Below, in pieces: positions 1 through 64,000 of a stretch of DNA of 64,000 bases. The stretch's first letter is position 1; every line of letters begins with the position of its first letter. The position numbers and the translations under genes are program-made. The stretch spans positions 9,096,288 through 9,160,287 of the forward strand of contig NC_092676.1 in assembly GCF_964355755.1 (NCBI RefSeq), read 5' to 3'. The notes under the pieces are model-generated. The model saw only the letters and a list, made by a program, of their open reading frames with translations. It was not told the DNA's origin and did not search any database. This DNA is from Antedon mediterranea (lineage: Eukaryota > Echinodermata > Crinoidea > Comatulida > Antedonidae).

Positions 1-97
1 AGAGTTTAGACAAGACAAGAATATTTCTTACAAAAAACGCTGCTTGCTTATTTTTATTGGTAAGGTCAAGTCTGGGGGGTCACTTCATCAAGCCTAG
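1..97 (+). pseudogene. 3' end of small plus-strand ORF remnant
   Basis: Last ~30 codons of the lysine-rich ORF described at 21253-21553; the rest lies before the window. Ends TAG at 95-97. Confidence 0.35.
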
Positions 98-394
98 ATA
101 CTTAGAGTATCCTATTACAAACAAAAACTTCAATGGACTGTTTTGATAATAATTCAATGATTATCTGACAGTGAATTATAGTACCCATGTAATATCATGG
201 GACTCATAAATACCAGAAATGCTTTGGGATTTGTTATTAGACTCTTTTCCCAGCCGTTTTTTGGATTCAATACCTATAAATTATAGTCGAGTTTCCATTT
301 TAACAAAAATGTCAAAGTGTAGTATTATACTGCTGCTTGATTTCATCTAATGAATGAGTTATCTCGTATGACGTAGCGGGCTAGAGCAGCAGCG

Positions 395-736
395 TGAAAA
401 AACTTAAAGAAGTGGAATCTTAATAAAAGTGATTGTTGCGAAAAGTGTTGTATAGAAATAGAAAGTGAAAAACATATGTTGTACACCTGTAACAGCATTC
501 AATCAGATTTGAGGAAGTTCCGTAAACTGATCGTTAAATGCATTCCGACTAATGAAACATTACGGTCAGGTTTCCCCGAATGGTAAGACATAATTATAGG
601 AACTCAGAACACGCTTGTTAATGAACTCATCTCTTTATTTACATTTAGTATTTACAAATCTTGCATTATTTATAAAACAAGCAAACGGATTATCACTTGG
701 AATTTATTTAAGATAGAACTATTTAAAAAAATTTAA
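395..736 (+). mobile_element. Non-LTR retrotransposon C-terminal remnant (zinc-knuckle region)
   Basis: A plus-strand frame encodes CC-x2-CC-x7-H-x4-C (DCCEKCCIEIESEKHMLYTC) followed by a basic helix. This is the arrangement of the zinc-binding region after the reverse transcriptase of many LINEs. After a TAA at 584-586 the same frame continues with DIIIGTQN and an IYK motif, like the LINE tail. It is a dead fragment, antisense to PFAS and about 550 bp past its stop codon. I infer the family from motif spacing only. Confidence 0.6.
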
Positions 737-1017
737 TTAATAAAAGCAATATTATGTTCAAAATGTAAAACTATACAATTTTATAAAAGTATCCAAACAA
801 AACATAATCTTATAATGCAATATACCATTTTATCATATTTATTTATATTATATCGAATCTCTTTTTAATACTGAATATCAATCTTTATATCGTTTTAGCT
901 CTGTAATATAAATTTTCTCTGTATACATGTTTGTTTTATCTAGACTTCAACACAATTTCAAAATATTTTACATAATCTTCCTCTGTCTGTGTAATATCAC
1001 TTAAATATTCATTGATA

Positions 1018-1036
1018 AATAGATAGATAGACAGAC
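1018..1036. repeat. Short ATAG/ACAG microsatellite
   Basis: A few tetranucleotide steps (atagatagatagacagaca) downstream of the PFAS stop codon. It recurs in the other units. The rest of 750-1286 is AT-rich with no feature that I can name; no convincing poly(A) site was chosen. Confidence 0.6.
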
Positions 1037-3433
1037 ATATATACTGTAACCTTCACCATATTGTTGTTTATCATTGCAATAAAAGTGGGTTGCCCCCACA
1101 AAAGAGAAAAAAAATATATATTGCTGAAATTAAGCCTCAATAAATAATATTGTTGAGAAGAGGAACACATTTATACAGTATATAACTATATCCCATTTTC
1201 ATGCATAAAGCAATAGTATCTGCCTCTGAAGCACCACCATCAAGATATTATTTTTTTTAAATATATCCCATGTATAAGCAATATTATTATCTATCTGCCT
1301 CTGACGTCTCCAAGCACCATGAACAAGCATTTTGGAACATTTTCATCCACGGTGACGCTTGTAATGTCTCCCGCCAATCTTGCGGCATCCATGGCCATTG
1401 CCACGTCAAAGTTGTACGCTCTGGATGAGGCATGATCGCCAGATGACGGCCATCTGCGGAGCAAATTGCCGCTACGCCATTGGGTGAGCCATTGGGGTTC
1501 AACGGGTATTCAGTTGTCACTTCTCCTTTGTCATCGACAAAGCGCACTGGTGCAAGATTTTCAGACAGAACTGTGTCTTTTGTTTCTTTGTTAGAAAACT
1601 TCATGTGCCCTAGAGAGAAACAATTTGAGTTGAGTAAATTTAATAACATTTTTAGTTAAATTAAAATATAAGTTTGTACTAAGCATCCATCATTATCAAG
1701 AGGTATCAATATCTAACCTTCTCCATGCTGTGTCCAGACACCAAGCACAGAGCCTTCCATTCCTTTCAGCATTAAAGCAGGGCTTTCATTAATCTTTACA
1801 GCAACAAAACGAGACTCAAAACGCTCGGAAAGATTATGAGCAAGATGGACTCCTTGCTGAGCTGATGCTGCGTCTAAAAGACAATAACAAATAATTCATA
1901 ATAAACAGTCTGTCAACAAATGGATATCAAAAAGTAGTTCATATTTTCTTTTTATTTGTCAAAGAGGCATTACCTGCTTTACACCGGTGTCCTACTACCA
2001 CTAAACTACTTACTAAATATACCTCATGATACCTTACCTGTAGTAAGCTCCTTGGTGACATCTGGAGCAACCCAGCCTAGCAGGCCCATTAGTTGGCAGC
2101 CATTGCATACACCCAGTGAGAAAGTGTCTTTCCTTGCTCTAAATGCATCAAACTGAGCACGCACAGCTGGGTTGAACAAAATAGTTGCTGCCCAACCTAA
2201 AATGATTAATAAACATTATTTAAATAAACTAGAATAAATATTTATTTAGGTTACTATCTGTCTAATACTAGTATAATACTTGGTTACTGCTCCAGCATGT
2301 ATTTTTGCTATGCTACAAAAAGTGCAATCAGAAAAATATACCTTTTGCAGAACCACAAACGTCTGCAAAACTGAAGCCACCAACAAAAACTAGTCCACGG
2401 AATTGATCGAGGGTGACTTTCCCGCAAGCTAAATCTTGCATATTGACGTCCCATGTTTCAAAGCCAGCCATGTGTAGTGTTGAACTCATCTCTCGATCTC
2501 CATTACTGCCTTCCTCACGGATCACAGCAACCTTTGGTTTCATTCCATCTATGGAAGGCCAATTATGATTATGTATATGGTAACTAATGAGCCAAATTTA
2601 ACTCGTATTACTTTAACAAATTAAAATTCAGAACAAGATAATCAATATTCCAAAATTGGTTCTAACCTTTAGAGCATCCCTTTTTAACAGAATTCAAATT
2701 TGTTGCAACGGGGTCAAAGGTTAATTTAAATGGTGGTGCTGTTCTATTTGCTAAATTGCGTTGCTCCACTTCAACACACTCTGGATTTGCTTGTAGTTTT
2801 TCCAGTTGAAAACTAGTCTCTTCCCACACGTCTCTAAGAACAGTCATCTTTTCATTCAAGACTTCTTTCTCATTTACCGAGATGACAACCTATAATTTAC
2901 ATGTAAAATATTCAGATTCATTCTAAAAACCATCATAAATGATAAATGATCGTAAATAAATGTTCAAATATTGCTTCCATTTAAAAAAAAAAAAACTTAC
3001 CATTGACCCTTGACCTGATCCACTAGAGTGACCAATTAGAGAACAAGGGACATTATTGTCACTGAACTGTCTACAAATGTCCTCACTAGCATTAGCTGTT
3101 ACTTCTAACACCAGCCCTACTTCTTCAGCAAACAGAATATCAATTGCAGTTACTGAAAATAAATATATAAAGTCTTACAATGTATTATTGCTTACCAGAG
3201 GTTCTGGAACCATATGAAAGATTAAAATGACACTTTACAGATCCATTCGAGGCATTTATAGAGATAGCATAATGCTTACCATCAGGTTCGGAAAGTTTGA
3301 CGTCAATACCACAATTCCCAGAAAACGCCATTTCTAATAATGTTGTTACAATACCGCCATCACTAATATCATGACCACCTGATATTTTTCTATCCACAAA
3401 AGGATACAAAAGACAAAGCTGAATTCATATCTC

Positions 3434-3588
3434 TAAAGCTCTGTCTACACTATCAAACTTTATGTGATGTGATATGCCCATATATGGACATGATATCATA
3501 TCACTACCATTTTTGGGCATTTCACTAGCCTATTTAGGCGCATCACATTTTTTTGTCAAACTAGTTTCATAGTGTAGACAGCGCTTTA
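3434..3588. mobile_element. MITE A in PFAS intron 14
   Basis: Terminal inverted repeats of about 25 bp start with TAAAGCTCTGTCTACACTAT and end with its near-complement. The 155-bp element has an internal palindromic part (catatatgg, gatatcatatc). Flanking TA could be a target duplication, which would suggest a Tc1/mariner-type origin; that part is inference. It sits right before the exon 15 acceptor. Confidence 0.75.
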
Positions 3589-4892
3589 TATTATAACTAC
3601 AAGTAAATGAATTTATTGTAAACGTCTAATTAATAAGTCTATGAAAATGACTACCTTTGATAAGATTTTGCGTTGTGTTGAAAGCCCTTACAAACGTTTC
3701 CGGTTCATCGAGATCAGGCGAGGATTGTCCGAGTTGATTATAGCACTGAGCGAGAGCACTACCACCTAACCGGTTATGCCTTTTACCAAATGAAACCCAG
3801 AGCAAAGTCCCTGAAATAGAATATGTAAAGTCTTGTTTATAAATATATTATATTTTTTGTTTGTTTAGGTAGTTAATTTAATTGTACCTAACAAAATGTG
3901 CAATGTTATATTCACTTTACCTTTACTGTCTGGACATTTAAGGTCAGGGGTCACAGTTGCAGTAATATCTGGGCATGCCACATACACAGACACAACCAAT
4001 GCACCTAAAAAATTGTAATTGATATTTCATTATTAGTAAGTAAATGGGAAAAAAAAGTGTATTAGTGTATTCAAGCTTAACTTATTAAAATAATTCACAA
4101 GATTGTACATCAGACACTATACTAGTTATTAACAAGCATGAAATGTCTAACCTGGAGCTTTGATCGTTTCAGAGCCTATCCTGGCAGCCATACTCAAAGA
4201 GTCCTTCCCACCATCCACAGCAACACCCAACTTGCCCATCACCTCGCATGCATCATACAATGCAGCACCCTCACCAGGAAGCTTCGCTGGCCACATCCAG
4301 TTACTGCTACATTTGACATCTTTAAGATCGGAGACCCTAGCAAACACAAGATTGGTAAGGGCTTCTCCTACAGACATCCTGGCACCACAGCCAGGATCGA
4401 CTAACCCTTTAATAGGCTGCTCTCCAATGGCTGTAGCTGAGCCTACAGTTTCAAAGTGGGAGAGTGCGATAACAGCAACATCAGCGAGTGGTGTGTGCAG
4501 GGGGCCTACACATTGCTGCTGGGCTATCAGGCCCGTGACAGCACGATCAACCTAACAGAAACAATATATCCTGGTTATACACTTTCCATATTCCTTCACA
4601 CAAATAAATTATGCAATATTAAAGATAAACAGATCTTTACCTTATTAGTCAAAAATCTTTTACTGGCTACTGAAGGTAGACGCAGAACACGGTCGAGTGC
4701 ACATCGGACAGTCAACCCATCAGGTAGTGTTAACTGCTTAAGTTTTGGTTTACATCGATCATACTTGAAAACCTGAGAGAAAAAAAAATATAATTCTATA
4801 TAATTTTACAGACAGAAAGAGACACTATTATTATAACACATAATTATTTTCAATGGTTATTTATGATGAAATCTGTGAGATTGAGAAAAAGT

Positions 4893-4964
4893 GACCTCAG
4901 CTGAGATTTGAACCTGGAATCTTCTGCTTGATATGCAGACATCCTACCATTACACCACTGATGC
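4893..4964 (-). tRNA. tRNA-Gly-like sequence (probable pseudo-tRNA) in PFAS intron 10
   Basis: The minus strand gives 72 nt with tRNA layout: acceptor GCATCAG pairs with CTGAGGT (one mismatch); box A TGGTGTAATGG; anticodon stem TCTGC/GCAGA with loop ATATCAA; box B GGTTCAAATC; a run of five T follows 2 nt after the discriminator base. The layout aligns with tRNA-Gly(TCC), but the anticodon triplet reads ATC and the T stem pairs badly. It is most likely a tRNA pseudogene or the head of a SINE. Confidence 0.55.
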
Positions 4965-5360
4965 ATTCATGGTATGGTTCAAACTTATTACCGACACTAC
5001 TCTACTATCAAGTCTCCATCATACCTTTTGCGGCATCTTCCCAAGAACCCATTCAAGTTGGAGATCAACTGGATAAGTAAGTGCTGTTCTTTTTATGCTT
5101 GGAGGTTCTGCATCACCCTTACCAGCTTCCACTTTCTTTTCCACCTCAAGACGAATCTGAAACAAAACAAAATATTTTTGTATTGCAAAACTCTTATGCA
5201 CTCTATCTGTGCATGAAAAGGCATTCTTCAAAATTAGTAACACTGTAGTATTTAAACGTGTTTTTTCATACTTATCCCACAGTAAGCACAAACTTGCCAA
5301 TTACAGGATGGATAAAATATTTTATAGTTGATCGTGCTTATAAACTAAGTTTTATTTCAG

Positions 5361-5451
5361 GCTTAGGGAGTGAAGTTGAAAGAGTCGTGAGTTACAACCC
5401 TTGACCTTGGAATTGGAAGGCAAGCATGTTAAACCACCAAGCAACAGCTCC
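5361..5451 (-). repeat. Second tRNA-derived SINE-like sequence, PFAS intron 9
   Basis: On the minus strand a box-A-like stretch (TTGCTTGGTGGTTTAAC) is followed by CTTGCCTTCCAA and a degraded box B. This order resembles a tRNA-Gly-derived SINE head. No poly(A) or clear target duplication is visible. Confidence 0.35.
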
Positions 5452-7221
5452 ACTAAAAAAATTTAGAATAAAGTAGGTAAAAAAAATCATCCAAATATTA
5501 CCTTCCCATCACCTGTAATGTCACCAACAAAAACAGCTGGACATTTCTCTCTGTCACAAATATCTAGAAGTTTTTCTTGATCCTCAGATCGTATTAGTAT
5601 GGCATTGGACTCCTGGTATTCTGCACCCCATAGTTCTAAGGTGTTGATGGTTGGATCACCTAGTTGGAATTCCTTAGCTTTTATTAGAGCACCTGCAGGT
5701 TCACATATCTCCTTTAAAACATTACCTGTACACAAAAAAATGATTTAATTGGTCAGATGTTAGCCATAGTTTGACATAAAAATAAGTACATTTGTCTGAC
5801 AAAGTGTCCCCTTAATAGGGATGTCCCAAATGAGGGGTGCTACTGTACTTAGTAAAATAATAAAAATAAGCACATTGCATGCAAACTCACCATTGCCTCC
5901 AGCTCCTTGATCATGTATACTACATATAGGGTTTGTATCAACCATCTCAATGCACGCCCTTATAACTCGGTTTAGTTTCTGTTCCATCTCCGCATCACCG
6001 CGCTGCACGGCTTCGAAGTCCAGTTTTTCTGTATTGTCACCTTGAACTTGAATGGAAGATGCAGCGCCCCCACCGACTCCGATGCGATAGATTGGTCCAC
6101 CAAGTTTTACAATTTTCATTCCTGCATGGTAAACAATTATTGATCAGTCAATAATTAGTTTTCAATGGAGAAATAAAAACAAAATATTTTATCAGGTTAC
6201 TATAATCTTATTTTATATGACAGACATATAATATCTATGTGGAGACAACAATAATAAGAATTGTACAGTATTTTTTATGGTGTTGTATTTAGTTTGTTTA
6301 ACAAACCTTTTTCTGCTTCGTCTTTAGTCGCATGCATACTCTCAAGCATCCCAATACCCCCGCTGAACATAATGGGCTTGACCCACTCTCTTCTGTCGCT
6401 CTCAGAAAGCATCATGCCAAATGAACGAGAGAAACCGGTTAGAACGGGTTCACCAAACTTGTTGCCGTAGTCAGATGCACCATTGCTGGCCTTTACAGCA
6501 ACCGACAGAGCAGGCGCCATGTTGCTAGGATAAACCATATTTTTGTCCTCCCATGGAAGGTCATACCCTGTTTAAACAAATGTTCAATCAATGATAATAA
6601 ATAATTAATTACACTGAATATATAACATTTATAAAAAGCAAAATTATGTAATTAAGCAAGCAATTATGCCTGTTCACTGCATGCGTTACTTAATATCTTT
6701 CATCCCATACTCTATTTATACATATAAGTGCCAGTAAATGAATATCTTTTAATTGTTGTTACTTTGCAAATCTTTGATAAGGTTTATCCTTTATATTTGT
6801 ATATTTGTTATGTTTTATTTTCTGTTATATTTGTATTTATTTTGATTTTTGAGCGAGTAAAGTCTGACATCAATTTTCATAAGGACTACAAAATCTAATT
6901 TTTAGATTTATATAATTTACCTGGAATGTTCAAATTTCCAAAACAGTAGCCTGCAGTGCCAGCCACTACATGTGCCCCCTTCCCTGCAGCCTGAACATCA
7001 CGTATTCTACCCCCAGTACCAGTTGTAGCCCCTGGGAAAGGTGCAACCCCAGTTGGAAAGTTATGGGTCTCTGCTGTGAAGATGATATGCCTGAGTGGTT
7101 CAGATTCCTCCATCACACTTGCTGACCCGGGATTGGCTGGTTTGAGAACTTTGACCTTATGGCCTTTGATTGCACTGAAAATCAAGTAAAGTCATCAAAG
7201 TGAGAAAAAACAGACAACATT

Positions 7222-7329
7222 TAAAGCTCTGTCTGTCCCCAAATATGGTAGTGATATGACATCATCATATCCATATATGGGCACATCACATTTTTTTACA
7301 TAAAAGTTGATAGTGTAGACAGAGCTTTA
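7222..7329. mobile_element. MITE B in PFAS intron 5, same family as MITE A
   Basis: Starts TAAAGCTCTGTCTGT and ends TAGTGTAGACAGAGCTTTA, with inner blocks (gtgatatgacatcatcatatcc, catcacattttttt) shared with MITE A. At 108 bp it is a shorter, deleted relative. Confidence 0.72.
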
Positions 7330-7715
7330 GGCAATACTTTGTGGTTCAACAAAATGTGAATAAATATCATTTACGATGGAAATTATGCCTGTAGTATTTT
7401 ATGGGCTATTTCATGACACCCTCTAGAACTAATAATTTCAGGTATAATGCCTAATTCTGTCCAGCACAACAAGATTTATACAAGAGTCATAGACACCATT
7501 CCAGTGAACTATATCGTGATTCGATTCGGAAAATATGGATATAAATATAAAAGCCACGTAAAATGTTAAGATACCTGCTGTTATCCGAGAATTTAATGAC
7601 GTTGTTATCATTGCTGGTAGCTTGCGTTGACATCACCATCTTGAATAAAGAATGATCTTTTTCTTCTCCATCGATTACCATCTTACCCTTAAAAAACCAA
7701 TGACGACTATGCTCA

Positions 7716-8985
7716 CTAGAAAGAAGACAGAAAGCAAGAAAAAACCATTTGTAGGAATATTTTCAGGAATTTCTAAATACAGTAATGAAAGCTGAGAAAT
7801 GTTGCATAGATGAAAAGAATTTAAGTAAAGAATGGTCTATGTCTTAGGATTATCCATGGTTACAAATACTATTTTACATTATTTTAGGCTAGAAGGCAAA
7901 TAGACAATGCCACAATTGTTTTTCACCTGTTTTTTTTTTCAGTTATATATTGAGGCAGATGGTATCTTTGTTCTTTTTGACTGTTTTACTTCATTTACTT
8001 TATTTTTACCTCATTTTGATTTAGCTATTTAGCATATTCTATTTATATCTCTATCCAATCACTGATATACTCACAGCATTGCAATACTGTATTTTCAATA
8101 ATTTAGGTTTGTATTAAATAAAGATATTACTTTTACAAGACAGTAAAGAATGTAAATAAATATTCATGACCATCATTCACAGATGGTAAAACTTCATGCG
8201 ACTAAAACTAAAGTGCTTTGTACCTGTTAGACTGAGCCAAGTCAAAGAGTTCAACACTTGTTGGATTCCGTTTAACCTTTTCAATAAACATGTTGGTGTA
8301 AAAGTCTATGTCCCACGTATCAAAGGCAAGTCCTGCAGTAAAGAATAATACAAAATGTTTATAATGCAATATTAATAATAGAAATCTTCATCAACCATTT
8401 ATTGGTCATGATAAGCTTTGGTTTATAAATTCAATAACAATGAATTCTTAAATGAACAATGTATCCACAGACCGATTAAATAATTACTGTACAGTAATAT
8501 TAACTGGTTACTAGAACACACTTAAAAGAATATGAAATCATGTTGGATGTTAAGCTAAATGTAATGTTAAAGACCTATTCCCTACAATTTTTGCCTTGTC
8601 TTTTCTGTTTTATGGTAAATTATGATAAAAAGAAAGAAACAATACACATGCACAATGCATGTTATGATTTATAGAAAGTCTCTAAATGATTAGAATCAAC
8701 TTATTTTTCAAATTTTTAACAGTTTTAAAGACGAAAAAGTTATCGCATACATATTTATTTTTACATTAAATGTAGTTTGTGACCTATAATTAGATCTAAA
8801 AACGTAGGAAATGGGACTTTAATCATAATATAATGATATACAGTATCAACACAAAGTTACCTATATTAATTTTAAAGTTAAGTTAATAATAGAAAAAACT
8901 GAAATAGAATTAAAAAACACAGGAGTTTAACACAGTTCAAAGATCATCTATACTTGGGAAACATGATTGAGAGTACTACAATCAC
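7716..8985. other. PFAS introns 3 and 4: no feature seen apart from exon 4
   Basis: Apart from exon 4 (8224-8332) these introns are AT-rich with no repeat or coding signal that I can name. The matching parts of units 2 and 3 (29211-30479 and 49047-50322) are the same. Confidence 0.6.
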
Positions 8986-9981
8986 CTAATTCTTTGTTTG
9001 CCTTTTCCAGAGCAACTTTTCCTTCACCTATAACATCAATTTCAAAGACTTCTTCTGGTTTAGCTTTAATTTCAAAGCTGCTGATTGGTTCGTGGTAGCG
9101 ACATTCCGTCATACGATCGTGAAGTACGGCTACCAGTAGCTTCTCTTCCTCGGGGCTGATAGACGCAGCAATGCCATGATCGTCGGCTACGTTTATAAGA
9201 TAGCGAATAGAACGCTCAATACGAGTCACATGGTTGATTCCAGCCGATTGGCAGATTGAGACGGCATTTGTTGACCAGGCCGTAGAGAAGTTCAACCTGT
9301 GTGTATAAAAATTAAACTTATTATATCATATACAGTAGATAGTGTAATGTAATGTCCATGATATTAAATATACAGTCAACATATTCTGCCATGCATGTTT
9401 ATGCCCACCTTTCTTAATTTATGCCTATTACCTTATTGAACAACAAAAATTATGACTTTTACTTTTTCAGATATTACCTACCGAATAACAAAACATACAG
9501 TATTATTTATTAATACTTATTCTCAACTGAAACCGACACTAACACTGTACGACTAGACAAGAAGGGTAATTTGTTAATTAAAAAACATTTTCTGACCTAG
9601 GCCCAATTTCAATCAGAAGTCCATCAGGTTCTTGATCATCTTCAACTATGATTGACTTGGTCAGCAGACTAAATTCTTCAAAAGGGGTACCTAAGATCCA
9701 TTGTATTTTCTTCTGTTCTTCACCACTGAGTCAATCTATGAAAATAATACACAGTTTAATTGACATTTTCAAAATAATATTAGTTTGGCAAAACAATTTA
9801 TTAAAATTTAAATTAGAAAGGAAGAGTACCTACCTCCGTTTACTTCCACATTAAAACAAATTTCCGTTTTTAAATCTTGCAATTTAGAATTTTCCAACTG
9901 CTTTGCTAATTTCTTCCACAAAACATTTGAAGCCCCTGGGAGTAATGCCGGACTTTTATAAAACCGAGTAATGATAGTCAT

Positions 9982-10324
9982 ATTCTTTAAAAAAATAAAT
10001 TATTAAATATTAGATCTATATTATTTTATATATTATTATTTATTATTATTGATGTTTACACTAAAAAAGTATAACTATAAAGTATATGACTTATAATAAT
10101 AATAATAATAAGCTTTATTTAATCACGGATACTTAACTTCAACTGAAAGTTGTTTTTCAGTAAGACCGTGTTTAAAGGAAAACACCAACAAAAATAAATG
10201 TAAAAAGACCTTAATTACTATCAAAAGAGATAAAAAAACAAAAAAACAATTACAATGAAATAAAATGAACCAAGGGTACACTTACTAACTATAAAATTAA
10301 ATAATACACTACATTTAAATAAAG
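9982..10324. other. 5' flank of PFAS copy 1
   Basis: This 340-bp stretch must hold the PFAS promoter if copy 1 is transcribed from its own start. It holds an (AAT)n run near 10095-10110 and AT-rich sequence. No CpG-rich block and no firm TATA box is seen. From about 10100 on it is probably the 3' UTR of the adjacent LINE fragment. Confidence 0.4.
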
Positions 10325-10605
10325 CTACATGAAATTAGCAGTTAACAGTTTCTTAAAAAGAGAGACACTGTTCACATTTTTAATATCTTCATTTAGCTCA
10401 TTCCTAACCTTGGCACCTCTATATGATAAGCTACGTTTTTGGTTTTGGTACTATTAAATTTGCCTTAGTTCTAATATTATAGTAATTGTTTTTGATATTG
10501 AATTTATTTTTATTAAATATGGAGGTGCAAGGTTGTTCATAATCTTAAACATAACAATAGCTTCATTTACATATAATATTTCATCTAAGTTCATCCAATT
10601 TAGAC
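10325..10605 (-). mobile_element. LINE reverse transcriptase tail fragment upstream of PFAS
   Basis: The minus strand reads SLNWMNLDEILY...FKIMNNLAPPYL, then after frame slips YNIRTKAN and SLSYRGAKVRNELNEDIK, ending FKKLLTANFM and a stop. The order (LNW, FK-x-NNLAPPYL, YRGAK-x-N-x-L, FKK) is that of the extreme C-terminus of CR1/L2-type and related LINE polymerases. At least two frameshifts show it is dead. Confidence 0.7.
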
Positions 10606-10774
10606 TTTGTAGAGCTTGAGTACTAGAGTGATCTGTAATTCGCGTAGCTTCAGAGTCGATGTGGCAAGGTTAGATGGTGGTTGTTGTACGGTATCACCAA
10701 GCACATCAAACGTGTTACTTGAGATTGTGCTAATGCCATTTTGTTTACAGTATAGATTAGGTTTAGATACAAAC

Positions 10775-12450
10775 TTTTTGGGTATTGCTAAACTGCGCAA
10801 ACAACAACAAAAGCTGCGCAAACCTCCTTCAAAACAATTATTATTGATTAGAACACAACTAGAACTATATAGGGAGACAATTTATGGGAAAAAGAATTTA
10901 AAATTCCTTTAAGTTTGCCTTTTTTTGGGTGAAAAACTTCAATTTTTGGGAAAATTACTGATTTAACAGCGCAAAGAACAAAAAAAGCTGCGCAAACCTC
11001 TCTCAAAACAATTAATATTGATAGAACACAACTAGAACTATATAGTGAGACAATTTATGAAGAAAAAAATTGAAATTCCTTTAAGTTTGCCTTTTTTTGG
11101 GTGAAAAACTTCAATTTTTGGGAAAATTACTGATTTCACAGCGCAAACAACAAAAAAAGCTGCGCAAACCTCCTTTAAATCAATTAATATTGATTAGATA
11201 ACAACTAGAACTATATAGGGAGACAATTTATGGGAAAACAAATTTGAATTTCCTTTGAGTTTGCCTTTTTTTGGGTGAAAAACTTCAATTTTTGGGAAAA
11301 TTACTGATTTCACAGCGCAAACCCCCAAAAAAGCTGCGCAAACCTCCTTCAAAACAATTAATATTGATAGAACACAACTAGAACTATATAAGGAGACAAT
11401 TTATGGGGAAAAAAATTGAAATTCCTTTAAGTTTGCCTTTTTTTGGGTGAAAAACTTCAATCTTTGGGAAAATTACTGATTTCACACCACAAACAACAAA
11501 AAAAGCTGCAAAACCTCCTTCAAAACAATTAATATTGATAGAACACAACTAGAACTATATAGGGAGACAATTTATGGGAAAAAAATTGAAATTCCTTTAA
11601 GTTTGCTTTTTTTTTGGTGAAAAACTTCAATTTTTGGGAAAATTACTTATTTCACAGCGCAAACAAAAAAAAAAGCTGCGCAAACCTCCTTTAAATCAAT
11701 TAATATTGATAGATAACAACTAAACTATATAGGGAGACAATTTATGGGAAAACAAATTTGAAATTCCTTCAAGTTTGCCTTTTTTGGGTTAAAAACTATT
11801 AATGTTAAGTAAACTTAAAGGAATTTCAAATTTGTTTTCCCATAAATTGTTTCCCTATATAGTTCTAGTTGTGTTCTATCAATATTAATTGATTTAAAGG
11901 AGGTTTGCGCAGCTTTTTTTGTTGTTTGTGCTGTGAAATCAATAATTTTCCCAAAAATTGAAGTTTTTCACCCAAAAAAAAGAAAACTTAAAGGAATTTC
12001 AAATTTGTTTTCCCATAAATTGTCTCTTTATATAGTTCTAGTTGTTATCTAATCAATATTAATTGATTTAAAGGAGGTTTGCGCAGCTTTTTTTTTTAGG
12101 TTTGCGCTGTGAAATCAGTAATTTTCCCAAAAATTGAACTTTTTACCCAAAAAAAGGCAAACTTAAAGGAATTTGAAATTTTTTTCCCATAAATTGTCTC
12201 CCTATATAGGTCTAGTTGTGTTTTAATCAATATTAATTGATTTAAAGGAGGTTTGCGCAGCTTTTTTTGGAGGTTTGCGCTGTGAAATCAGTAATTTTCC
12301 CAAAAATTGAAGTTTTTCACCCAAAAAAAGTCAAACTTAAAGGAATTTTATATTTTTTCCCCATAAATTGTCTCCCTATATAGGTCTAGTTGTGTTTTAA
12401 TCAATATTAATTTTTTTGTTGTTTGCGCAGTTTAGCAATACCCAACTTTT
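10775..12450. repeat. Foldback array, unit 1: six ~172-bp repeats then about three inverted
   Basis: The array is bounded on the left by TTTTTGGGTATTGCTAAACT and on the right by its complement (ends near 12450). Left arm repeats start with aagctgcgc at 10811, 10985, 11157, 11331, 11503 and 11673, a period of 170-174 bp. From about 11808 the same repeat runs in reverse, with cgcagctttt near 11907, 12081 and 12254. The axis is near 11790-11815. Either strand could fold into a long imperfect hairpin. Confidence 0.9.
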
Positions 12451-13094
12451 TAGGTAGTTCAAATTCAGGTTCACTTGCAATATTCTGTAAACTAAGAATT
12501 TGTTGCTCAAGAGACCAGTTTCTTTCACTCATTTCTTTAAAAGCTTTACTAAGGTGAACAAAATTTGAATGGATTTCTTGAATTAGTGTAGCTGTTGTTT
12601 TAATTCAGAAACTTTCTCATCAGTTTGCTTTATTTTCAGCTTTAGTGATGGGATCTGGTCCCATTATTTAGGTGTTTGAGTTGAACAATCAATTGCTTTC
12701 ACAAACTCAGAGGATTTACAATTCTGACTGTAATCGTTGAGTGTTATTTCTTCAATTAACGGCGCTGTTCCAATATTTAGCTCGTCTTTTTTTATTTCCT
12801 TTCATAATCATAGCTTAATTTTCTGAATAGATCAATATTATCAGGAGTCGATGTTTCAAATGCAAGCCTATCAAAATGACTTCTAAGTTCATCATATGCA
12901 AAGCCATAAAAGCTAGAGTTTGTTGTATCTAGAATGCTTGGAGCTTTTATATGACCATAGCTAGGCCACTGGTTTTCCATTGTTAGCTTTGTTTGAAATT
13001 GGGCGGAAAAAGCTTGTGTACTTACTTGAACAATAGAAAGCTGGTGTATCAATTGTTCTTGCTTGAGCCTAAGATCCTCAACATGAAAAAACAC
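12407..13094 (-). pseudogene. Unrecognised coding-like remnant (coiled-coil-like), unit 1
   Basis: The minus strand has three coding-like segments in different frames. 12792-13094 encodes about 100 aa with KQEQLIHQLSIVQ and MENQWPSYGHIKAPSILD. About 12605-12790 continues in another frame (KKDELNIGTAPLIEEITLND, later STQTP, with a stop). 12407-12590 reads EIHSNFVHLSKAFKEMSE and ends LGIAKLRKQQKN plus stop. It is charged and heptad-like, suggesting a coiled coil. I do not recognise the family. Its 3' end runs into the right edge of the foldback array. Confidence 0.45.
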
Positions 13095-13595
13095 TTAATA
13101 TCCTGCTTATAATATTGACTTTGACAATAAAAATTACATCTCCGTGTTGAGAAAATAACAGTTTAGACAATTTATCAGTCACTAGGTGGTAGAAAGTTGA
13201 AAACTATTTTATGGAGAAGATTTTTCAATAGCTTTTTTCAAGAGCTTCTTGGCTTGGCTAAGTCGAAACTGGTTTTAATTAATTAATTTTATCCTAAAAA
13301 AGTACAAGATTGCCCATATATTATTAGGCTATCTAGGACCAGGTTCTTTCTATGAATATAGGCTAGGCTATATTTATATGTAACTCGGCGTTTACGCCAA
13401 AAAAACATGAGCCTGGTTTTTATTTAGTAGGCCTAGCCTAGTCGACAACATCATTCCCGCACTTTCATCGTTCATTTTATAAGTTGTCCGTCCTAAATAA
13501 GGGCCTAGCTAGGCTTACCTAGCCCATTAAGCCTAGCCTAAATTGTAGTCATCAGAAAGAGCACTAATAAAAAAAACAGATGCACAATAAGTAAT
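12700..13595. repeat. 896-bp repeat, copy a, unit 1
   Basis: Starts cacaaactcagagg. Contains the 100-aa minus-strand ORF (12792-13094) and ~500 bp of TAGGCCTA-rich, intron-like sequence. This copy has Thr where others have Ile (SILDTTNSS). Confidence 0.92.
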
Positions 13596-14491
13596 CACAA
13601 ACTCAGAGGATTTACAATTCCGACTGTAATCGTTGAGTGTTATTTTTTCAATTAACGGCGCTGTTTCAATATTTAGCTCGTCTTTTTTTATTTCCTTTCA
13701 TAATCATAGCTTAATTTTCTGAATAGATCAATATTATCAGGAGTCGATGTTTCAAATGCAAGCCTATCAAAATGACTTCTAAGTTCATCATATGCAAAGC
13801 CATAAAAGCTAGAGTTTGTTATATCTAGAATGCTTGGAGCTTTTATATGACCATAGCTAGGCCACTGGTTTTCCATTGTTAGCTTTGTTTGAAATTGGGC
13901 GGAAAAAGCTTGTGTACTTACTTGAACAATAGAAAGCTGGTGTATCAATTGTTCTTGCTTGAGCCTAAGATCCTCAACATGAAAAAACACTTAATATCCT
14001 GCTTATAATATTGACTTTGACAATAAAAATTACATCTCCATGTTGAGAAAACAACAGTTTAGACAATTTATCAGTCACTAGGTGGTAGAAAGTTGAAAAC
14101 TATTTTATGGAGAAGATTTTTCAATAGCTTTTTTCAAGAGCTTCTTGGCTTGGCTAAGTCGAAACTGGTTTTAATTAATTAATTTTATCCTAAAAAAGTA
14201 CAAGATTGCCCATATATTATTAGGCTATCTAGGACCAGGTTCTTTCTATGAATATAGGCTAGGCTATATTTATATGTAACTCGGCGTTTACGCCAAAAAA
14301 ACATGAGCCTGGTTTTTATTTAGTAGGCCTAGCCTAGTCGACAACATCATTCCCGCACTTTCATCGTTCATTTTATAAGTTGTCCGTCCTAAATAAGGGC
14401 CTAGCTAGGCTTACCTAGCCCATTAAGCCTAGCCTAAATTGTAGTCATCAGAAAGAGCACTAATAAAAAAAACAGATGCACAATAAGTAAT
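13596..14491. repeat. 896-bp repeat, copy b, unit 1
   Basis: Exact period of 896 bp from copy a. The ORF 13688-13990 is open and nearly identical to copy a. Confidence 0.92.
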
Positions 14492-15406
14492 CACAAACTC
14501 AGAGGATTTACAATTCTGACTGTAATCGTTGAGTGTTATTTCTTCAATTAACGGCGCTGTTTCAATATTTAGCTTGTCTGTTTTTATTTCCTTTCATAAT
14601 CATAGCTTAATTTTCTGAATAGATCAATATTATCAAGAGTCGATGTTTCAAATGCAAGCCTATCAAAATGACTTCTAAGTTCATCATATGCAAAGCCATA
14701 AAAGCTAGAGTTTGTTATATCTAGAATGCTTGGAGCTTGTATATGACCATAGCTAGGCCACTGGTATTCCATTGTTAGCTTTGTTTGAAATTTGGCGGAA
14801 AAAGCTTGTGTACTAATACTTGAACAATAGAAAGCTGGTGTATCAATTGTTCTTGCTTGAGCCTAAGATCCTCAACATGAAAAAACACTTAATATCCCGC
14901 TTATAATATTGACTTTGACAATAAAAATTACATCTCCATGTTGAGAAAACAACAGTTTAGACAATTTATCAGTCACTAGCTGGTAGAAAGTTGAAAACTA
15001 ATTTATAGAGAAGATTTTTCAATAGCTTTTTTCAAGAGCTTCTTGGCTTGGCTAAGACTGTCGAAACTGGTTTTAATTAATTAATTTTATCCTAAAAAAG
15101 TACAAGATTGCCCATATATTATAGGCTATCTAGGACCAGGTTCTTTCTATAAATATATGCTAGGCTATATTTATATGTAACTCGGCGTTTACGTCAAAAA
15201 AACATGAGCCTGGTTTTTATTTAGTAGGCCTAGCCTAGTCGACAACATCATTCCCGCACTTCCATCGTTCATTTTATAAGTAGTCCGTTCTAAATAAAAG
15301 GGCCTACCCTAGGCCTAGCTAGCTAGGCTTACCTGCCCATTAGGCCTAGCCTAAATTGTAGTCATCAGAAAGAGCACTAATCAAAAAACAGATACACAAT
15401 AAGTAA
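14492..15406. repeat. 896-bp repeat, copy c (most diverged), unit 1
   Basis: Extra bases in the ORF near 14812-14815 (actaatacttg for acttacttg) break the frame, leaving a 62-aa ORF at 14584-14772. It also differs in the intron-like half (aatatatgc, gggcctaccctaggcc). Confidence 0.9.
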
Positions 15407-17279: not shown

Positions 17280-17292
17280 TCCTCCCCTAACT

Positions 17293-21180: not shown

Positions 21181-21252
21181 AACTCACTCACTCTCTTAAC
21201 TATCTTTTAACTTCCCAGAGACGAGAAGTGTTTACACCTACTTGTTCATTCC

Positions 21253-41060: not shown

Positions 41061-41137
41061 GATTAAACTCACTCACTCTCTTAACTATCTTTTAACTTCC
41101 CAGAGACGAGAAGTGTTTACACCTACTTGTTCATTCC

Positions 41138-48600: not shown

Positions 48601-51313
48601 TCCATATATGGGCACATCACATTTTTTTACATAAAAGTTGATAGTGTAGACAGAGCTTTAGGCAATACTTTGTGGTTCAACAAAATGTGAATAAATATCA
48701 TTTACGATGGAAATTATGCCTGTAGTATTTTATGGGCTATTTCATGACACCTTCTAGAACTAATAATTTCAGGTATAATGCCTAATTCTGTCCAGCACAA
48801 CAAGATTTATACAAGAGTCATAGACACCATTCCAGTGAACTATATCGTGATTCGATTCGGAAAATATGGATATAAATATAAAAGCCACGTAAAATGTTAA
48901 GATACCTGCTGTTATCCGAGAATTTAATGACGTTGTTATCATTGCTGGTAGCTTGCGTTGACATCACCATCTTGAATAAAGAATGATCTTTTTCTTCTCC
49001 ATCGATTACCATCTTACCCTTAAAAAACCAATGACGACTATGCTCACTAGAAAGAAGACAGAAAGCAAGAAAAAACCATTTGTAGGAATATTTTCAGGAA
49101 TTTCTAAATACAGTAATGAAAGCTGAGAAATGTTGCATAGATGAAAAGAATTTAAGTAAAGAATGGTCTATGTCTTAGGATTATCCATGGTTACAAATAC
49201 TATTTTACTTTATTTTAGGCTAGAAGGCAAATAGACAATGCCACAATTGTTTTTCACCTGTTTTTTTTTTCAGGTATATATTGAGGCAGATGGTATCTTT
49301 GTTCTTTTTGACTGTTTTACTTCATTTACTTTATTTTTACCTCATTTTGATTTAGCTATTTAGCATATTCTATTTATATCTCTATCCAATCACTGATAAA
49401 CTCACAGCATTGCAATACTGTATTTTCAATAATTTAGGTTTGTATTAAAATTAAATAAAGATATTACTTTTAAAAGACAGTAAAGAATGTAAATAAATAT
49501 TCATGACCATCATTCACAGATGGTAAAACTTCATGCGACTAAAACTAAAGTGCTTTGTACCTGTTAGACTGAGCCAAGTCAAAGAGTTCAACACTTGTTG
49601 GATTCCGTTTAACCTTTTCAATAAACATGTTGGTGTAAAAGTCTATGTCCCACGTATCAAAGGCAAGTCCTGCAGTAAAGAATAATACAAAATGTTTATA
49701 ATGCAATATTAATAATAGAAATCTTCATAAACCATTTATTGGTCATGATAAGCTTTGGTTTATAAATTCAATAACAATGAATTCTTAAATGAACAATGTA
49801 TCCACAGACCGATTAAATAATTACTGTACAGTAATATTAACTGGTTACTAGAACACACTTAAAAGAATATGAAATCATGTTGGATGTTAAGCTAAATGTA
49901 ATGTTAAAGACCTATTCCCTACAATTTTTGCCTTGTCTTTTCTGTTTTATGGTAAATTATGATAAAAAGAATGAAACAATACACATGCACAATGCATGTT
50001 ATGATTTATAGAAAGTCTCTAAATGATTAGAATCAACTAATTTTTTAAATTTTTAACAGTTTTAAAGACGAAAAAGTTATCGCATACATATTTATTTTTA
50101 CATTAAATGTAGTTTGTGACCTATAATTAGATCTAAAAACGTAGGAAATGGGACTTTAATCATAATATAATGATATACAGTATCAACACAAAGTTACCTA
50201 TATTAATTTTAAAGTTAAGTTAATAATAGAAAAAACTGAAATAGAATTAAAAAACACAGGAGTTTAACACAGTTCAAAGTTCATCTATACTTGGGGAACA
50301 TGATTGAGAGTACTACAATCACCTAATTCTTTGTTTGCCTTTTCCAGAGCAACTTTCCCTTCACCTATAACATCAATTTCAAAGACTTCTTCTGGTTTAG
50401 CTTTAATTTCAAAGCTGCTGATTGGTTCGTGGTAGCGACATTCCGTCATACGATCGTGAAGTACGGCTACCAGTAGATTCTCTTCCTCGGGGCTGATAGA
50501 CGCAGCAATGCCATGATCGTCGGCTACGTTTATAAGATAGCAAATAGAACGCTCAATACGAGTCACATGGTTGATTCCAGCTGATTGGCAGATTGAGACG
50601 GCATTTGTTGACCAGGCCGTAGAGAATTTCAACCTGTGTGTATAAAAATTAAACTTATTATATCATATACAGTAGATAGTGTAATGTCCATGATATTAAA
50701 TATACAGTCAACATATTCTGCCATGCATGTTTATGCCCACCTTTCTTAATTTATGCCTATTACCTTGTTGAACAACAAAAATTATGACTTTTACTTTTTC
50801 AGATATTACCTACCGAATAACAAAACATACAGTATTATTTATTAATACTTATTCTCAACTGAAACCGACACTAATACTGTACGACTAGAAAAGAAGGGTA
50901 TTTTGTTAATTAAAAAACATTTTCTGACCTAGGCCCAATTTCAATCAGAAGTCCATCAGGTTCTTGATCATCTTCAACTATGATTGACTTGGTCAGCAGG
51001 CTAAATTCTTCAAAAGGGGTACCTAAGATCCATTGTATTTTCTTCTGTTCTTCACCACTGAGGCAATCTATGAAAATAATACACAGTTTAATTGACATTT
51101 TCAAAATAATATTAGTTTGGCAAAACAATTTATTAAAATTTAAATTAGAAAGGAAGAGTACCTACCTCCGTTTACTTCCACATTAAAACAAATTTCCGTT
51201 TTTAAATCTTGCAATTTAGAATTTTCCAACTGCTTTGCTAATTTCTTCCACAAAACATTTGAAGCCCCTGGGAGTAATGCCGGACTTTTATAAAACCGAG
51301 TAATGATAGTCAT
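42628..51313 (-). CDS. PFAS: PFAS copy 3: phosphoribosylformylglycinamidine synthase, open, 1351 aa
   Basis: Exons in order: 51166-51313, 50929-51067, 50323-50633, 49561-49669, 48906-49046, 48252-48505, 47646-47906, 47232-47462, 46843-47066, 46366-46497, 45982-46113, 45493-45892, 45262-45345, 44996-45151, 44621-44734, 44342-44493, 44008-44230, 43683-43889, 43379-43537, 43059-43214, 42628-42950 (4056 nt with stop). Codon 51 is Cys and the intron 14 acceptor is a normal AG. Exon 12 lacks 12 bp, removing four residues about six positions before the VDGGKDS ATP-site motif (D about 807). Private substitutions in exon 3: Asn to Lys in LNFSTAW, Arg to Cys in ERSIRY, Lys to Asn in EEEKLL. Catalytic triad residues are present (Cys about 1170, His about 1306, Glu about 1308). 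It is open, but whether it folds and works normally is uncertain. Confidence 0.9.
44775..44929. mobile_element. MITE A, unit 3
   Basis: Same element in intron 14, with the same right-end mismatch as unit 1. Confidence 0.75.
46234..46305 (-). tRNA. tRNA-Gly-like sequence, unit 3
   Basis: Identical to the unit 1 copy, with the TTTTT run intact. Confidence 0.55.
46702..46792 (-). repeat. SINE-like sequence, unit 3
   Basis: Same short form as unit 1, with one extra substitution in the box B area (acaaacc for acaaccc). Confidence 0.33.
48553..48660. mobile_element. MITE B, unit 3
   Basis: Same element in intron 5. Its left end is altered (taaagctcctactgtcccc), weakening the inverted repeat. Confidence 0.7.
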
Positions 51314-51657
51314 ATTCTTTAAAAAAATAAATTATTAAATATTAGATCTATATTATTTTATATATTATTATTTATTATTATTGATGTTTACACTAAAAAA
51401 GTATAACTATAAAGTATATGACTTATAATAATAATAATAAGCTTTATTTAATCACGGATACTTAACTTCAACTGAAAGTTGTTTTTCAGTAAGACCGTGT
51501 TTAAAGGAAAACACCAACAAAAATAAATGTAAAAAGACCTTAATTACTATCAAAAGAGATAAAAAAAAAAAAACCAATTACAATGAAATAAAATGAAACA
51601 AGGGTACACTTACTAACTATAAAATTAAATAATACACTACAGTACATTTAAATAAAG

Positions 51658-51938
51658 CTACATGAAATTAGCAGTTAACAGTTTCTTAAAAAGAGAGACA
51701 CTGTTCACATTTTTAATATCTTCATTTAGCTCATTCCTAACCTTGGCACCTCTATATGATAAGCTACGTTTTTGGTTTTGGTACTATTAAATTTGGCTTA
51801 GTTCTAATATTATAGTAATTGTTTTTGATATTGAATTTATTTTTATTAAATATGGAGGTGCAAGGTTGTTCATAATCTTAAACATAACAAAAGCTTCATT
51901 TACATATAATATTTCATCTAAGTTCATCCAATTTAGAC
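51658..51938 (-). mobile_element. LINE reverse transcriptase tail, unit 3
   Basis: Same fragment and same frame slips as unit 1. Confidence 0.68.
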
Positions 51939-52107
51939 TTTGTAGAGCTTGAGTACTAGAGTGATCTGTAATTCGCGTAGCTTCAGAGTCGATGTGGCAA
52001 GGTTAGATGGTGGTTGTTGTACGGTATCACCAAGCACATCAAACGTGTTACTTGAGATTGTGCTAATGCCATTTTGTTTACAGTATAGATTAGGTTTAGA
52101 TACAAAC

Positions 52108-54048
52108 TTTTTGGGTATTGCTAAACTGCGCAAACACTGCGCAAACAACAACAAAAGCTGCGCAAACCTCCTTCAAAACAATTATTATTGATTAGAACAC
52201 AACTAGAACTATATAGGGAGACAATTTATGGGAAAAAGAATTTAAAATTCCTTTAAGTTTGCCTTTTTTTGGGTGAAAAACTTCAATTTTTGGGAAAATT
52301 ACTGATTTAACAGCGCAAAGAACAAAAAAAGCTGCGCAAACCTCTTTCAAAACAATTAATATTGATAGAACACAACTAGAACTATATAGTGAGACAATTT
52401 ATGGGGAAAAAAATTGAAATTCCTTTAAGTTTGCCTTTTTTTGGGTGAAAAACTTCAATTTTTGGGAAAATTACTGATTTCACAGCGCAAACAACAAAAA
52501 AAGCTGCGCAAACCTCCTTTAAATCAATTAATATTGATTAGATAACAACTAGAACTATATAGGGAGACAATTTATAGGAAAACAAATTTGAATTTCCTTT
52601 GAGTTTGCCTTTTTTTGGGTGAAAAACTTCAATTTTTGGGAAAATTACCGATTTCACAGCGCAAACCCCCAAAAAAGCTGCGCAAACCTCCTTCAAAACA
52701 ATTAATATTTATAGAACACAACTAGAACTATATAAGGAGACAATTTATGGGGAAAAAATTTGAAATTCCTTTAAGTTTGCCTTTTTTTGGGTGAAAAACT
52801 TCAATTTTTGGGAAAATTACTGATTTCACAGCACAATTTGCCTTTTTTTGGGTTAAAAACTATTAATGTTAAGTAAACTTAAAGGAATTTCAAATTTGTC
52901 TTCCCATAAATTGTCTCCCTATATAGTTTAGTTGTTATCTATCAATATTAATTGATTTAAAGGAGGTTTGCGTAGCTTTTTTTGTTGTTTGCGCTGTGAA
53001 ATCAATAATTTTCCCAAAAATTGAAGTTTTTCACCCAAAAAAAAGAAAACTTAAAGGAGTTTCAAATTTGTTTTCCCATAAATTGTCTCCTTATATAGTT
53101 CTAGTTGTTATCTAATCAATATTAATTGATTTAAAGGAGGTTTGCGCAGCTTTTTTTTTTGGTTTGCGCTGTGAAATCAGTAATTTTCCCAAAAATTGAA
53201 GTTTTTTACCCAAAAAAAGGCAAACTTAAAGGAATTTTAAATTTTTTCCCCATAAATTGTCTCCCTATATAGGTCTAGTTGTGTTTTAATCAATATTAAT
53301 TGATTTAAAGGAGGTTTGCGCAGCTTTTTTTGGAGGTTTGCGCTGTGAAATCAGTAATTTTCCCAAAAATTGAAGTTTTTACCCAAAAAAAGGCAAACTT
53401 AAAGGAATTTTAAATTTTTTCCCCATAAATTGTCTCCCTATATAGGTCTAGTTGTGTTTTAATCAATATTAATTGATTTAAAGGAGGTTTGCGCAGCTTT
53501 TTTTGGAGGTTTGCGCTGTGAAATCAGTAATTTTCCCAAAAATTGAAGTTTTTCACCCAAAAAAAAGAAAACTTAAAGGAATTTCAAATTTGTTTTCCCA
53601 TAAATTGTCTCCTTATATAGTTCTAGTTGTTATCTAATCAATATTAATTGATTTAAAGGAGGTTTGCGCAGCTTTTTTTTTAGGTTTGCGCTGTGAAATC
53701 AGTAATTTTCCCAAAAATTGAAGTTTTTTACCCAAAAAAAGGCAAACTTAAAGGAATTTTAAATTTTTTCCCCATAAATTGTCTCCCTATATAGGTCTAG
53801 TTGTGTTTTAATTAATATTAATTGATTTAAAGGAGGTTTGCGCAGCTTTTTTTGGAGGTTTGCTCTGTGAAATCAGTAATTTTCCCAAAAATTGAAGTTT
53901 TTCACCCAAAAAAAGTCAAACTTAAAGGAATTTTATATTTTTTCCTCATAAATTGTCTCCCTATATAGGTCTAGTTGTGTTTTAATCAATATTAATTTTT
54001 TTTTTTTTTGCGCAGTGTTTGCGCAGTTTAGCAATACCCAACTTTTTA
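52108..54048. repeat. Foldback array, unit 3: four forward, six inverted repeats
   Basis: Forward repeats at 52155, 52329, 52501 and 52675; the axis is near 52855-52880; six reverse repeats occupy 52900-54000. The copy numbers in the two arms differ from unit 1, but the boundaries are the same. Confidence 0.9.
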
Positions 54049-61578: not shown

Positions 61579-61879
61579 TTGCAAGACATGCTTCCTGATG
61601 ATGTCATCATCATGTCAACCCAATCACCTGTGTCCTCTGCAAGTAAAAACGCACTTGATGAACTAGAAAAGGAAATAACTACAAAACTTAAAATTCTAAC
61701 CGCTCACAAATTTGATGACAAAGTGGAAGAAGTGAAAGATGATAAAGAAAAAAAAAACAAAATCTGTAGAAGAGTGGAGGAAAGAGTTTAGACAAGACAA
61801 GAATATTTCTTACAAAAAACGCTGCTTGCTTATTTTTATTGGTAAGGTCAAGTCTGGGGGGTCACTTCATCAAGCCTAG
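61579..61879 (+). pseudogene. Lysine-rich small ORF remnant, unit 3/4 junction
   Basis: Identical to the unit 2/3 copy. Confidence 0.35.
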
Positions 61880-62176
61880 ATACTTAGAGTATCCTATTAC
61901 AAACAAAAACTTCAATGGACTGTTTTGATAATAATTCAATGATTATCTGACAGTGAATTATAGTACCCATGTAATATCATGGGACTCATAAATACCAGAA
62001 ATGCTTTGGGATTTGTTATTAGACTCTTTTCCCAGCCGTTTTTTGGATTCAATACCTATAAATTATAGTCGAGTTTCCATTTTAACAAAAATGTCAAAGT
62101 GTAGTATTATACTGCTGCTTGATTTCATCTAATGAATGAGTTATCTCGTATGACGTAGCGGGCTAGAGCAGCAGCG

Positions 62177-62518
62177 TGAAAAAACTTAAAGAAGTGGAAT
62201 CTTAATAAAAGTGATTGTTGCGAAAAGTGTTGTATAGAAATAGAAAGTGAAAAACATATGTTGTACACCTGTAACAGCATTCAATCAGATTTGAGGAAGT
62301 TCCGTAAACTGATCGTTAAATGCATTCCGACTAATGAAACATTACGGTCAGGTTTCCCCGAATGGTAAGACATAATTATAGGAACTCAGAACACGCTTGT
62401 TAATGAACTCATCTCTTTATTTACATTTAGTATTTACAAATCTTGCATTATTTATAAAACAAGCAAACGGATTATCACTTGGAATTTATTTAAGATAGAA
62501 CTATTTAAAAAAATTTAA
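62177..62518 (+). mobile_element. LINE C-terminal remnant, unit 4
   Basis: Appears identical to the unit 1 and unit 3 copies. Confidence 0.58.
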
Positions 62519-63068
62519 TTAATAAAAGCAATATTATGTTCAAAATGTAAAACTATACAATTTTATAAAAGTATCCAAACAAAACATAATCTTATAATGC
62601 AATATACCATTTTATCATATTTATTTATATTATATCGAATCTCTTTTTAATACTGAATATCAATCTTTATATCGTTTTAGCTCTGTAATATAAATTTTCT
62701 CTGTATACATGTTTGTTTTATCTAGACTTCAACACAATTTCAAAATATTTTACATAATCTTCCTCTGTCTGTGTAATATCACTTAAATATTCATTGATAA
62801 ATAGATAGATAGACAGACATATATACTGTAACCTTCACCATATTGTTGTTTATCATTGCAATAAAAGTGGGTTGCCCCCACAAAAGAGAAAAAAAATATA
62901 TATTGCTGAAATTAAGCCTCAATAAATAATATTGTTGAGAAGAGGAACACATTTATACAGTATATAACTATATCCCATTTTCATGCATAAAGCAATAGTA
63001 TCTGCCTCTGAAGCACCACCATCAAGATATTATTTTTTTTAAATATATCCCATGTATAAGCAATATTA

Positions 63069-64000
63069 TTATCTATCTGCCTCTGACGTCTCCAAGCACC
63101 ATGAACAAGCATTTTGGAACATTTTCATCCACGGTGACGCTTGTAATGTCTCCCGCCAATCTTGCGGCATCCATGGCCATTGCCACGTCAAAGTTGTACG
63201 CTCTGGATGAGGCATGATCGCCAGATGACGGCCATCTGCGGAGCAAATTGCCGCTACGCCATTGGGTGAGCCATTGGGGTTCAACGGGTATTCAGTTGTC
63301 ACTTCTCCTTTGTCATCGACAAAGCGCACTGGTGCAAGATTTTCAGACAGAACTGTGTCTTTTGTTTCTTTGTTAGAAAACTTCATGTGCCCTAGAGAGA
63401 AACAATTTGAGTTGAGTAAATTTAATAACATTTTTAGTTAAATTAAAATATAAGTTTGTACTAAGCATCCATCATTATCAAGAGGTATCAATATCTAACC
63501 TTCTCCATGCTGTGTCCAGACACCAAGCACAGAGCCTTCCATTCCTTTCAGCATTAAAGCAGGGCTTTCATTAATCTTTACAGCAACAAAACGAGACTCA
63601 AAACGCTCGGAAAGATTATGAGCAAGATGGACTCCTTGCTGAGCTGATGCTGCGTCTAAAAGACAATAACAAATAATTCATAATAAACAGTCTGTCAACA
63701 AATGGATATCAAAAAGTAGTTCATATTTTCTTTTTATTTGTCAAAGAGGCATTACCTGCTTTACACCGGTGTCCTACTACCACTAAACTACTTACTAAAT
63801 ATACCTCATGATACCTTACCTGTAGTAAGCTCCTTGGTGACATCTGGAGCAACCCAGCCTAGCAGGCCCATTAGTTGGCAGCCATTGCATACACCCAGTG
63901 AGAAAGTGTCTTTCCTTGCTCTAAATGCATCAAACTGAGCACGCACAGCTGGGTTGAACAAAATAGTTGCTGCCCAACCTAAAATGATTAATAAACATTA
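63069..64000 (-). CDS. PFAS: PFAS copy 4, last three exons only (window edge)
   Basis: Exons 63820-63978, 63500-63655 and 63069-63391 correspond to exons 19, 20 and 21. They include the amidotransferase nucleophile motif GVCNGCQ and the MPHPERT motif, ending in TAA. No lesion is seen in this part. The remainder lies beyond the window, so its state is unknown. Confidence 0.9.

Follow-up and report, generated by a model that had tools for sequence, protein, structure and literature searches.

The window, the whole stretch of DNA that was analyzed (64,000 nucleotides, C7:9096288-9160287), lies within a tandem array of predicted PFAS genes in Antedon mediterranea. The assembly that was searched comprises 354,431,138 bases in 18 contigs. 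A full-length copy scored 1750.3 bits against TIGR01735, the PFAS/FGAM synthase profile, over residues 25-1344 (cut-off, 1123.05), and it aligned with a solved PFAS, PDB 9n9w, over residues 4-1349. The array gene is PFAS, a predicted enzyme of purine synthesis, and the identity given in a preliminary description of this DNA is borne out by both comparisons. The gene model also contains GVCNGCQ, which we take to be the glutaminase cysteine motif in the C-terminal domain of PFAS. In animals, the enzyme is generally regarded as being encoded by one gene copy. A protein deamidase role of PFAS in the antiviral response has been described as well (PMC10820379).

Table 1. Features of the window, with positions counted from its first nucleotide
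Feature	Position	Strand	Remarks
PFAS copy C7_06 (subtype A), 21 exons	1287-9981	-	Exon 12 shorter by 12 nt, in frame; no AG acceptor before exon 15
PFAS copy C7_07 (subtype B), 21 exons	22740-31475	-	Introns all GT-AG; 1,353 aa open; the window's intact copy
PFAS copy C7_08 (subtype C)	42628-51313	-	Frame open; 12-nt deletion in exon 12
PFAS copy C7_09, exons 19-21	63069-63978	-	Rest past window edge, where exon 16 lacks 38 bp and exon 12 lacks 12 nt
Last-exon fragment of the C5 PFAS-neighbor gene	21161-21463; repeated 41046-41348	+	95.4% to C5:27101695-27101993
1.1-kb stretch of dispersed repeats	21464-22589	+	Between neighbor-gene fragment and PFAS 3' end
Retroelement-like open frame	20737-21153	-	End adjoins neighbor-gene fragment; no Pfam match
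Tandem repeats with 172-174-bp units, upstream of exon 1 of PFAS	10795-12412; 32447-32947; 52135-53997		
Three head-to-tail ~0.9-kb repeats upstream of PFAS	12699-15409		92-100-aa open frame each; first frame without Pfam match
tRNA-Asp-like sequence in PFAS intron 10	4893-4964; 26359-26430; 46234-46305	- (4893-4964)	One per full window copy

The retroelement-like open frame in Table 1 is presumably integrase-like, and eight non-PFAS open frames of the unit matched no Pfam family at E 0.1. A search of plasmid sequences gave no match either. The stretch of dispersed repeats gave 45 matches, 13 of them in C7:8996956-9265277 and 32 elsewhere, among the best 40 of 1,255 candidates scored, and it had no counterpart at the fetched C5 locus.

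Extent of the array

In a self-alignment of the window, from which the 60 longest matches of more than 300 bases were taken, positions 1-11492 recurred at 41342-52836 with 99.1% identity, positions 1-10408 at 21457-31907 with 98.8%, and positions 1-2218 at 61783-64000 with 100%; positions 19436-31907 recurred at 39323-51741 with 98.6%. A chance or low-complexity origin of the repeats was rejected on the basis of 10-kb matches at about 99%. The block starts first reported (1, 21457, 41342, and 61783) were reproduced at 98.8 to 100% identity. The block had been described as about 20 kb long; its recurrence stands, but a constant size does not, as the gene part measures about 8.7 kb and the spacing from copy to copy ranges from about 13.1 to 25.0 kb.

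Exon matches, with the best 35 of 196 search candidates scored, and an alignment of the fetched stretch C7:8990000-9249999 gave 12 PFAS copies on C7. All are on the minus strand and lie head to tail, where at least three such units on one strand would make a tandem gene array. The array spans C7 8.997-9.236 Mb, the 3' ends of its PFAS copies running from C7:8997740 to C7:9226405. The tandem arrangement seen in the window is thus real in this assembly and extends past the window on C7, with one refinement: a 13th PFAS, found among the same 35 scored candidates, is a complete copy on C5.

No N occurs in the 260 kb around the window (C7:8,990,000-9,249,999). A gap-filled assembly was rejected for that reason, contiguity alone being no proof. 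A miscount could be hidden by the near-identical sequence that recurs 61.8 kb away, and the exact copy number, as read from one assembly, would be about 12.

Condition and relatedness of the copies

The first copy in the window (C7_06) served as the basis of a 21-exon gene model, which was then transferred to each of the 13 loci through alignments. Every array copy has the 21 exons, with AG/GT at every junction in nine of the 12 and one acceptor lost in three (03, 06, and 10). Introns are retained in 12 of 12, and the array copies are therefore not retrocopies, as had been concluded from the window.

Five of the 12 (02, 04, 07, 11, and 12) are full length without a lesion, with 1,353 amino acids each, and the coding sequence of copy 07 is identical to those of copies 04 and 12. 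At least one lesion is present in each of the other seven, among which five have small in-frame or splice defects and two are frameshifted. Copies 05 and 08 keep an open frame minus 12 nt in exon 12. The same 12 nt are missing from copies 03, 06, and 10, which also have GG instead of AG ahead of exon 15; an in-frame AG lies 15 nt downstream of the lost acceptor. Copy 01 is frameshifted, with a 23-nt deletion in exon 3, and so is copy 09, in which 38 nt are gone from exon 16 in addition to the 12 nt from exon 12. Taking the exon 15 boundary as given, the frame is open in 10 of the 12, and judging from these frames, many array copies are apparently still working. The preliminary description had placed a full or cut PFAS gene in each block; three full copies and part of a fourth are indeed there, but only the middle one of the three full copies (C7_07) is free of lesions.

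By distance, the copies form five groups that are mutually 32 to 63 sites apart over the 9.7-kb gene alignment: copy 01, copy 02, and subtypes A (03, 06, and 10), B (04, 07, 11, and 12), and C (05, 08, and 09). Along the array they follow one another as 01 02 A B C A B C C A B B. The C5 gene differs from the array copies at 439 to 455 sites, a figure inflated by a misalignment around its exon 1. In the introns, copies 01, 02, 05, 06, and 09 differ from C7_04 or C7_06 by 0.6 to 0.8%, compared with 7.2 to 7.3% for the C5 gene, so the diversity of the array has about one-tenth the depth of the C5-C7 split. These values agree with the recent segmental duplication that had been proposed. Gene conversion could also give the array its young look.

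A 66.9-kb alignment joins C7:9032496-9099331 to C7:9094269-9161113 at 99.84% identity, at an offset of 61.8 kb, and copies 04 and 07 show no difference along the whole gene. Multi-unit unequal crossing-over explains this repeat, and a head-to-tail placement of haplotypes could explain it too. The array would then be real but its count inflated, because a shorter array would have entered the assembly twice, one haplotype behind the other. The near-identity at that offset and the match between copies 04 and 07 would fit such an error. However, the five groups stand clearly apart by the distances given above, copies 03 and 06 differ at 15 sites even though both belong to subtype A, and the stretch is free of N. 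Halving the count would still leave several tandem copies, with the number of subtypes unchanged. We consider an inflated count unlikely.

The C5 gene and the edges of the array

Exons 2 to 21 of the C5 PFAS are open, and exon 1, which occupies C5:27112543-27112694, has a GT donor. The stop codon of the gene is intact in the bases, and the alignment gap there is an alignment effect. The C5 copy matched each of the 12 array copies in two long pieces at 94 to 96% and a third, near the 5' end, at 83 to 88%; in local alignment, the upstream similarity of the C7 copies to C5 covers only about 95 bp before the ATG. Tail to tail with the C5 PFAS is a plus-strand multi-exon reading (27098412-27102137) that matched no Pfam family at E 0.01. 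A search with the joined open frames of this neighbor gene gave five exon matches on C5. It also gave 12 on C7, every one of them to the last exon only, cut short, with 11 in the array and one beside a duplicate of the purine gene GART. Because C7 holds only last-exon fragments of the neighbor gene, C5 is the likely parent of the C7 PFAS, and the simplest order of copying would be from C5 to C7.

Exons of the C5 gene and C7_04 differ at 77 of 3,909 sites (2.0%; exons 2 to 21), and introns over the same span differ at 318 of 4,409 (7.2%). Indel events in exons 2 to 21 and their introns numbered 51 in introns and 0 in exons, the last two columns having been left out owing to the stop-codon gap. 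The dN/dS against C5 was 0.156 to 0.201 in all 12 array copies. There were 85 coding changes on the C5 and C7 branches together, compared with about 146 expected on a neutral C7 branch alone (P = 2.5e-8), an expectation that assumes equal rates on both branches. Given such equal rates, the deficit shows purifying selection on the predicted C7 gene. From the exon and intron divergence, the dN/dS, and the indel pattern, it follows that the C7 gene would have been functional before its later amplification.

Coding variation among the 12 array copies amounts to 38 sites, of which 21 are N and 17 are S. With copy 01 set aside, the counts fall to 14 N and 14 S, and the five intact copies have 4 N and 7 S. 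The private changes of copy 01, polarized by C5, are 7 N to 1 S, compared with about 33:53 between C5 and C7 (P = 0.0097), as would be expected for a dead copy. The difference between 33:53 and the 14:14 of the array without copy 01 was not significant (P = 0.38); constraint in the array looks weaker than before amplification, though not significantly so.

The left edge of the unit, C7:8996956, adjoins H2A and H1 genes. This H2A/H1 stretch is tandemly repeated along C7:8.952-8.997 Mb, where five matches (query included) cover both genes, and a histone gene repeat is thus the left neighbor of the PFAS array. Off C7, the closest long relatives of the stretch among the best 40 of 149 candidates are at C2:24.657-24.679 Mb, the five longest (1.0-2.9 kb) being 92 to 94% identical, as raw identity with coding and noncoding positions taken together.

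On the right side, the array runs on to C7:9265277 with two interruptions, namely, a satellite at about 9238-9254 kb of C7 and a stretch with a LINE frame (9257518-9260982). The LINE open frame lies at C7:9257598-9259997; DVESNPGP at its start is presumably a 2A-like motif. By-eye reading of the joint gave about 14 nt of PFAS 3' flank, then some 20 to 25 nt of filler, and then GART from 9265301. This second GART (C7:9265301-9276168) is 5' truncated, its start corresponding to C7:16384549 of the complete GART. Ten of 14 GART peptides matched in C7:9260000-9277999, and the four first-exon peptides had no match in that stretch. A long 30-bp minisatellite sits between two exons of the complete GART (C7:16388532-16390421) and is mostly absent from the duplicate.

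The GART duplicate differs from its parent at 42 of 2,196 exon sites (1.9%), over ten exon pieces, and at 434 of 7,035 noncoding sites (6.2%), a count that includes one short unmarked exon and leaves out the intron minisatellite, with 93 indel events. No stop was found in the 655 codons compared (a GARSC piece with a 3-nt gap was left out). AIRS2 of the duplicate matched over only 59 of 67 residues by tblastn, and its nucleotide alignment has neither gap nor stop. The 42 coding changes compare with about 68 expected if the duplicate were neutral (P = 0.0005). At 2.0 and 7.2% for PFAS and 1.9 and 6.2% for GART, the divergences of the two genes are alike.

A few kb from the GART duplicate, at C7:9280306-9286418, are open frames encoding OTU, Pif1 helicase, and endonuclease domains, which we take to be like those of a Helentron-type rolling-circle transposon. 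Their position is what would be seen had a rolling-circle element brought PFAS and GART to C7. However, C7:9276000-9287999 had no match at E 1e-6 to window positions 1-42000 or to the fetched C5 or GART-parent stretches, so the sequence of the nearby element was not found inside the amplified unit as Helitron gene capture would have it, and there is filler DNA at the GART joint. Capture by a transposon is extremely unlikely in our estimation.

The PAICS, ATIC, ADSL, and PPAT families have one locus each, and GART has two; the PPAT pieces do not reach the cut-off for the whole protein, which is to be expected of single exons. With one locus for each of those four and an unamplified GART copy, PFAS alone is amplified among the six genes searched. 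PPAT, often held to be rate limiting in purine synthesis, is at C5:27324770-27328288, about 210 kb from the C5 PFAS. PFAS is inhibited by azaserine and DON, GART is folate dependent, and DHFR is amplified under methotrexate. In this context, PFAS and GART might have been gained together as resistance to a natural glutamine antagonist or antifolate. They are the only two of the six genes with a second locus, and those loci share one place and a similar divergence. But the GART copy lacks its first exons and is not amplified, no exposure is known, and none of the papers listed in a literature search made such a link. We view amplification of a drug target here as very improbable.

Origin and retention of the array

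The best reading of the locus is probably that a mosaic segmental duplication came first and that a housekeeping gene in working order was then amplified in tandem. A C5-like stretch, consisting of the last-exon fragment of the neighbor gene and a whole PFAS gene, lies on C7 beside the H2A/H1 repeats, as its homology to C5 shows, and the other end of the array is joined across filler to a GART duplicate without its first exons. For this neighborhood we infer a single composite event. Given equal rates on both branches, the C7 PFAS was kept under purifying selection before it was amplified. Unequal crossing-over between the repeat-rich units may then have produced about 12 copies, and multi-unit steps of crossing-over the A-B-C higher-order repeat. 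The extra copies would have been retained, at least partly, for PFAS dosage, which is plausibly the reason that the array was kept. Meanwhile, some copies are decaying, with 01 and 09 frameshifted and subtype A carrying splice and in-frame lesions.

Several findings speak against this explanation, namely, the 14 N and 14 S sites in the array, the lesions in seven of 12 copies, the upstream similarity to C5 that stops after about 95 bp, and the four other pathway genes that remain single. The last three, together with the tandem and dispersed repeats in the units, would also suit a neutral, unstable segmental duplication that grew by unequal crossing-over with no effect on fitness or on PFAS output. 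Nevertheless, the C7 gene was constrained before amplification, and five copies are full length, with 4 N and 7 S variable sites among them. Neutral growth is a possibility that we entertain seriously, if with some doubt.

S phase draws on histones as well as on purine enzymes. It is conceivable, but in our judgment improbable, that C7 8.95-9.28 Mb is a young locus for S-phase supply. Three segments of separate origin (H2A/H1, PFAS, and the half of GART with AIRS and GAR transformylase) would have come together there at roughly one time, and amplification of the histone and PFAS genes would have raised chromatin and purine supply, for example, in eggs or stem cells. An equal age for the histone segment would be a guess, because only the raw identity of its five longest C2 matches is known. 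The presence of PFAS and GART side by side is suggestive, but the coincidence is weak evidence, since GART is truncated and there is only one such case.

The kind of event that we favor, tandem amplification of a segmental duplication, is already known. CYP6CY3 in aphids and DHFR under methotrexate reportedly underwent tandem gene amplification by unequal crossing-over. The PFAS array resembles those amplifications in its head-to-tail, intron-bearing units of high identity and in its mixture of intact and broken copies. In contrast to them, PFAS is a core housekeeping enzyme with a complete copy on another chromosome. In the mosaic segmental-duplication hubs of primates, segments from several places were joined and then duplicated. 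The C7 locus is similar in that segments of several origins are joined at one site and duplicated as multi-unit blocks, but here the setting is a 354-Mb genome, and the genes on two of the segments belong to the same pathway. A literature search on PFAS or purine-gene arrays found no PFAS array among the matches listed, in a collection with few subscription papers. The array would be a young locus where copies can be watched living and dying. If the reading that we favor is true, a natural, partly intact PFAS array beside GART and histone genes would offer a test case for dosage selection on a step of a core pathway.
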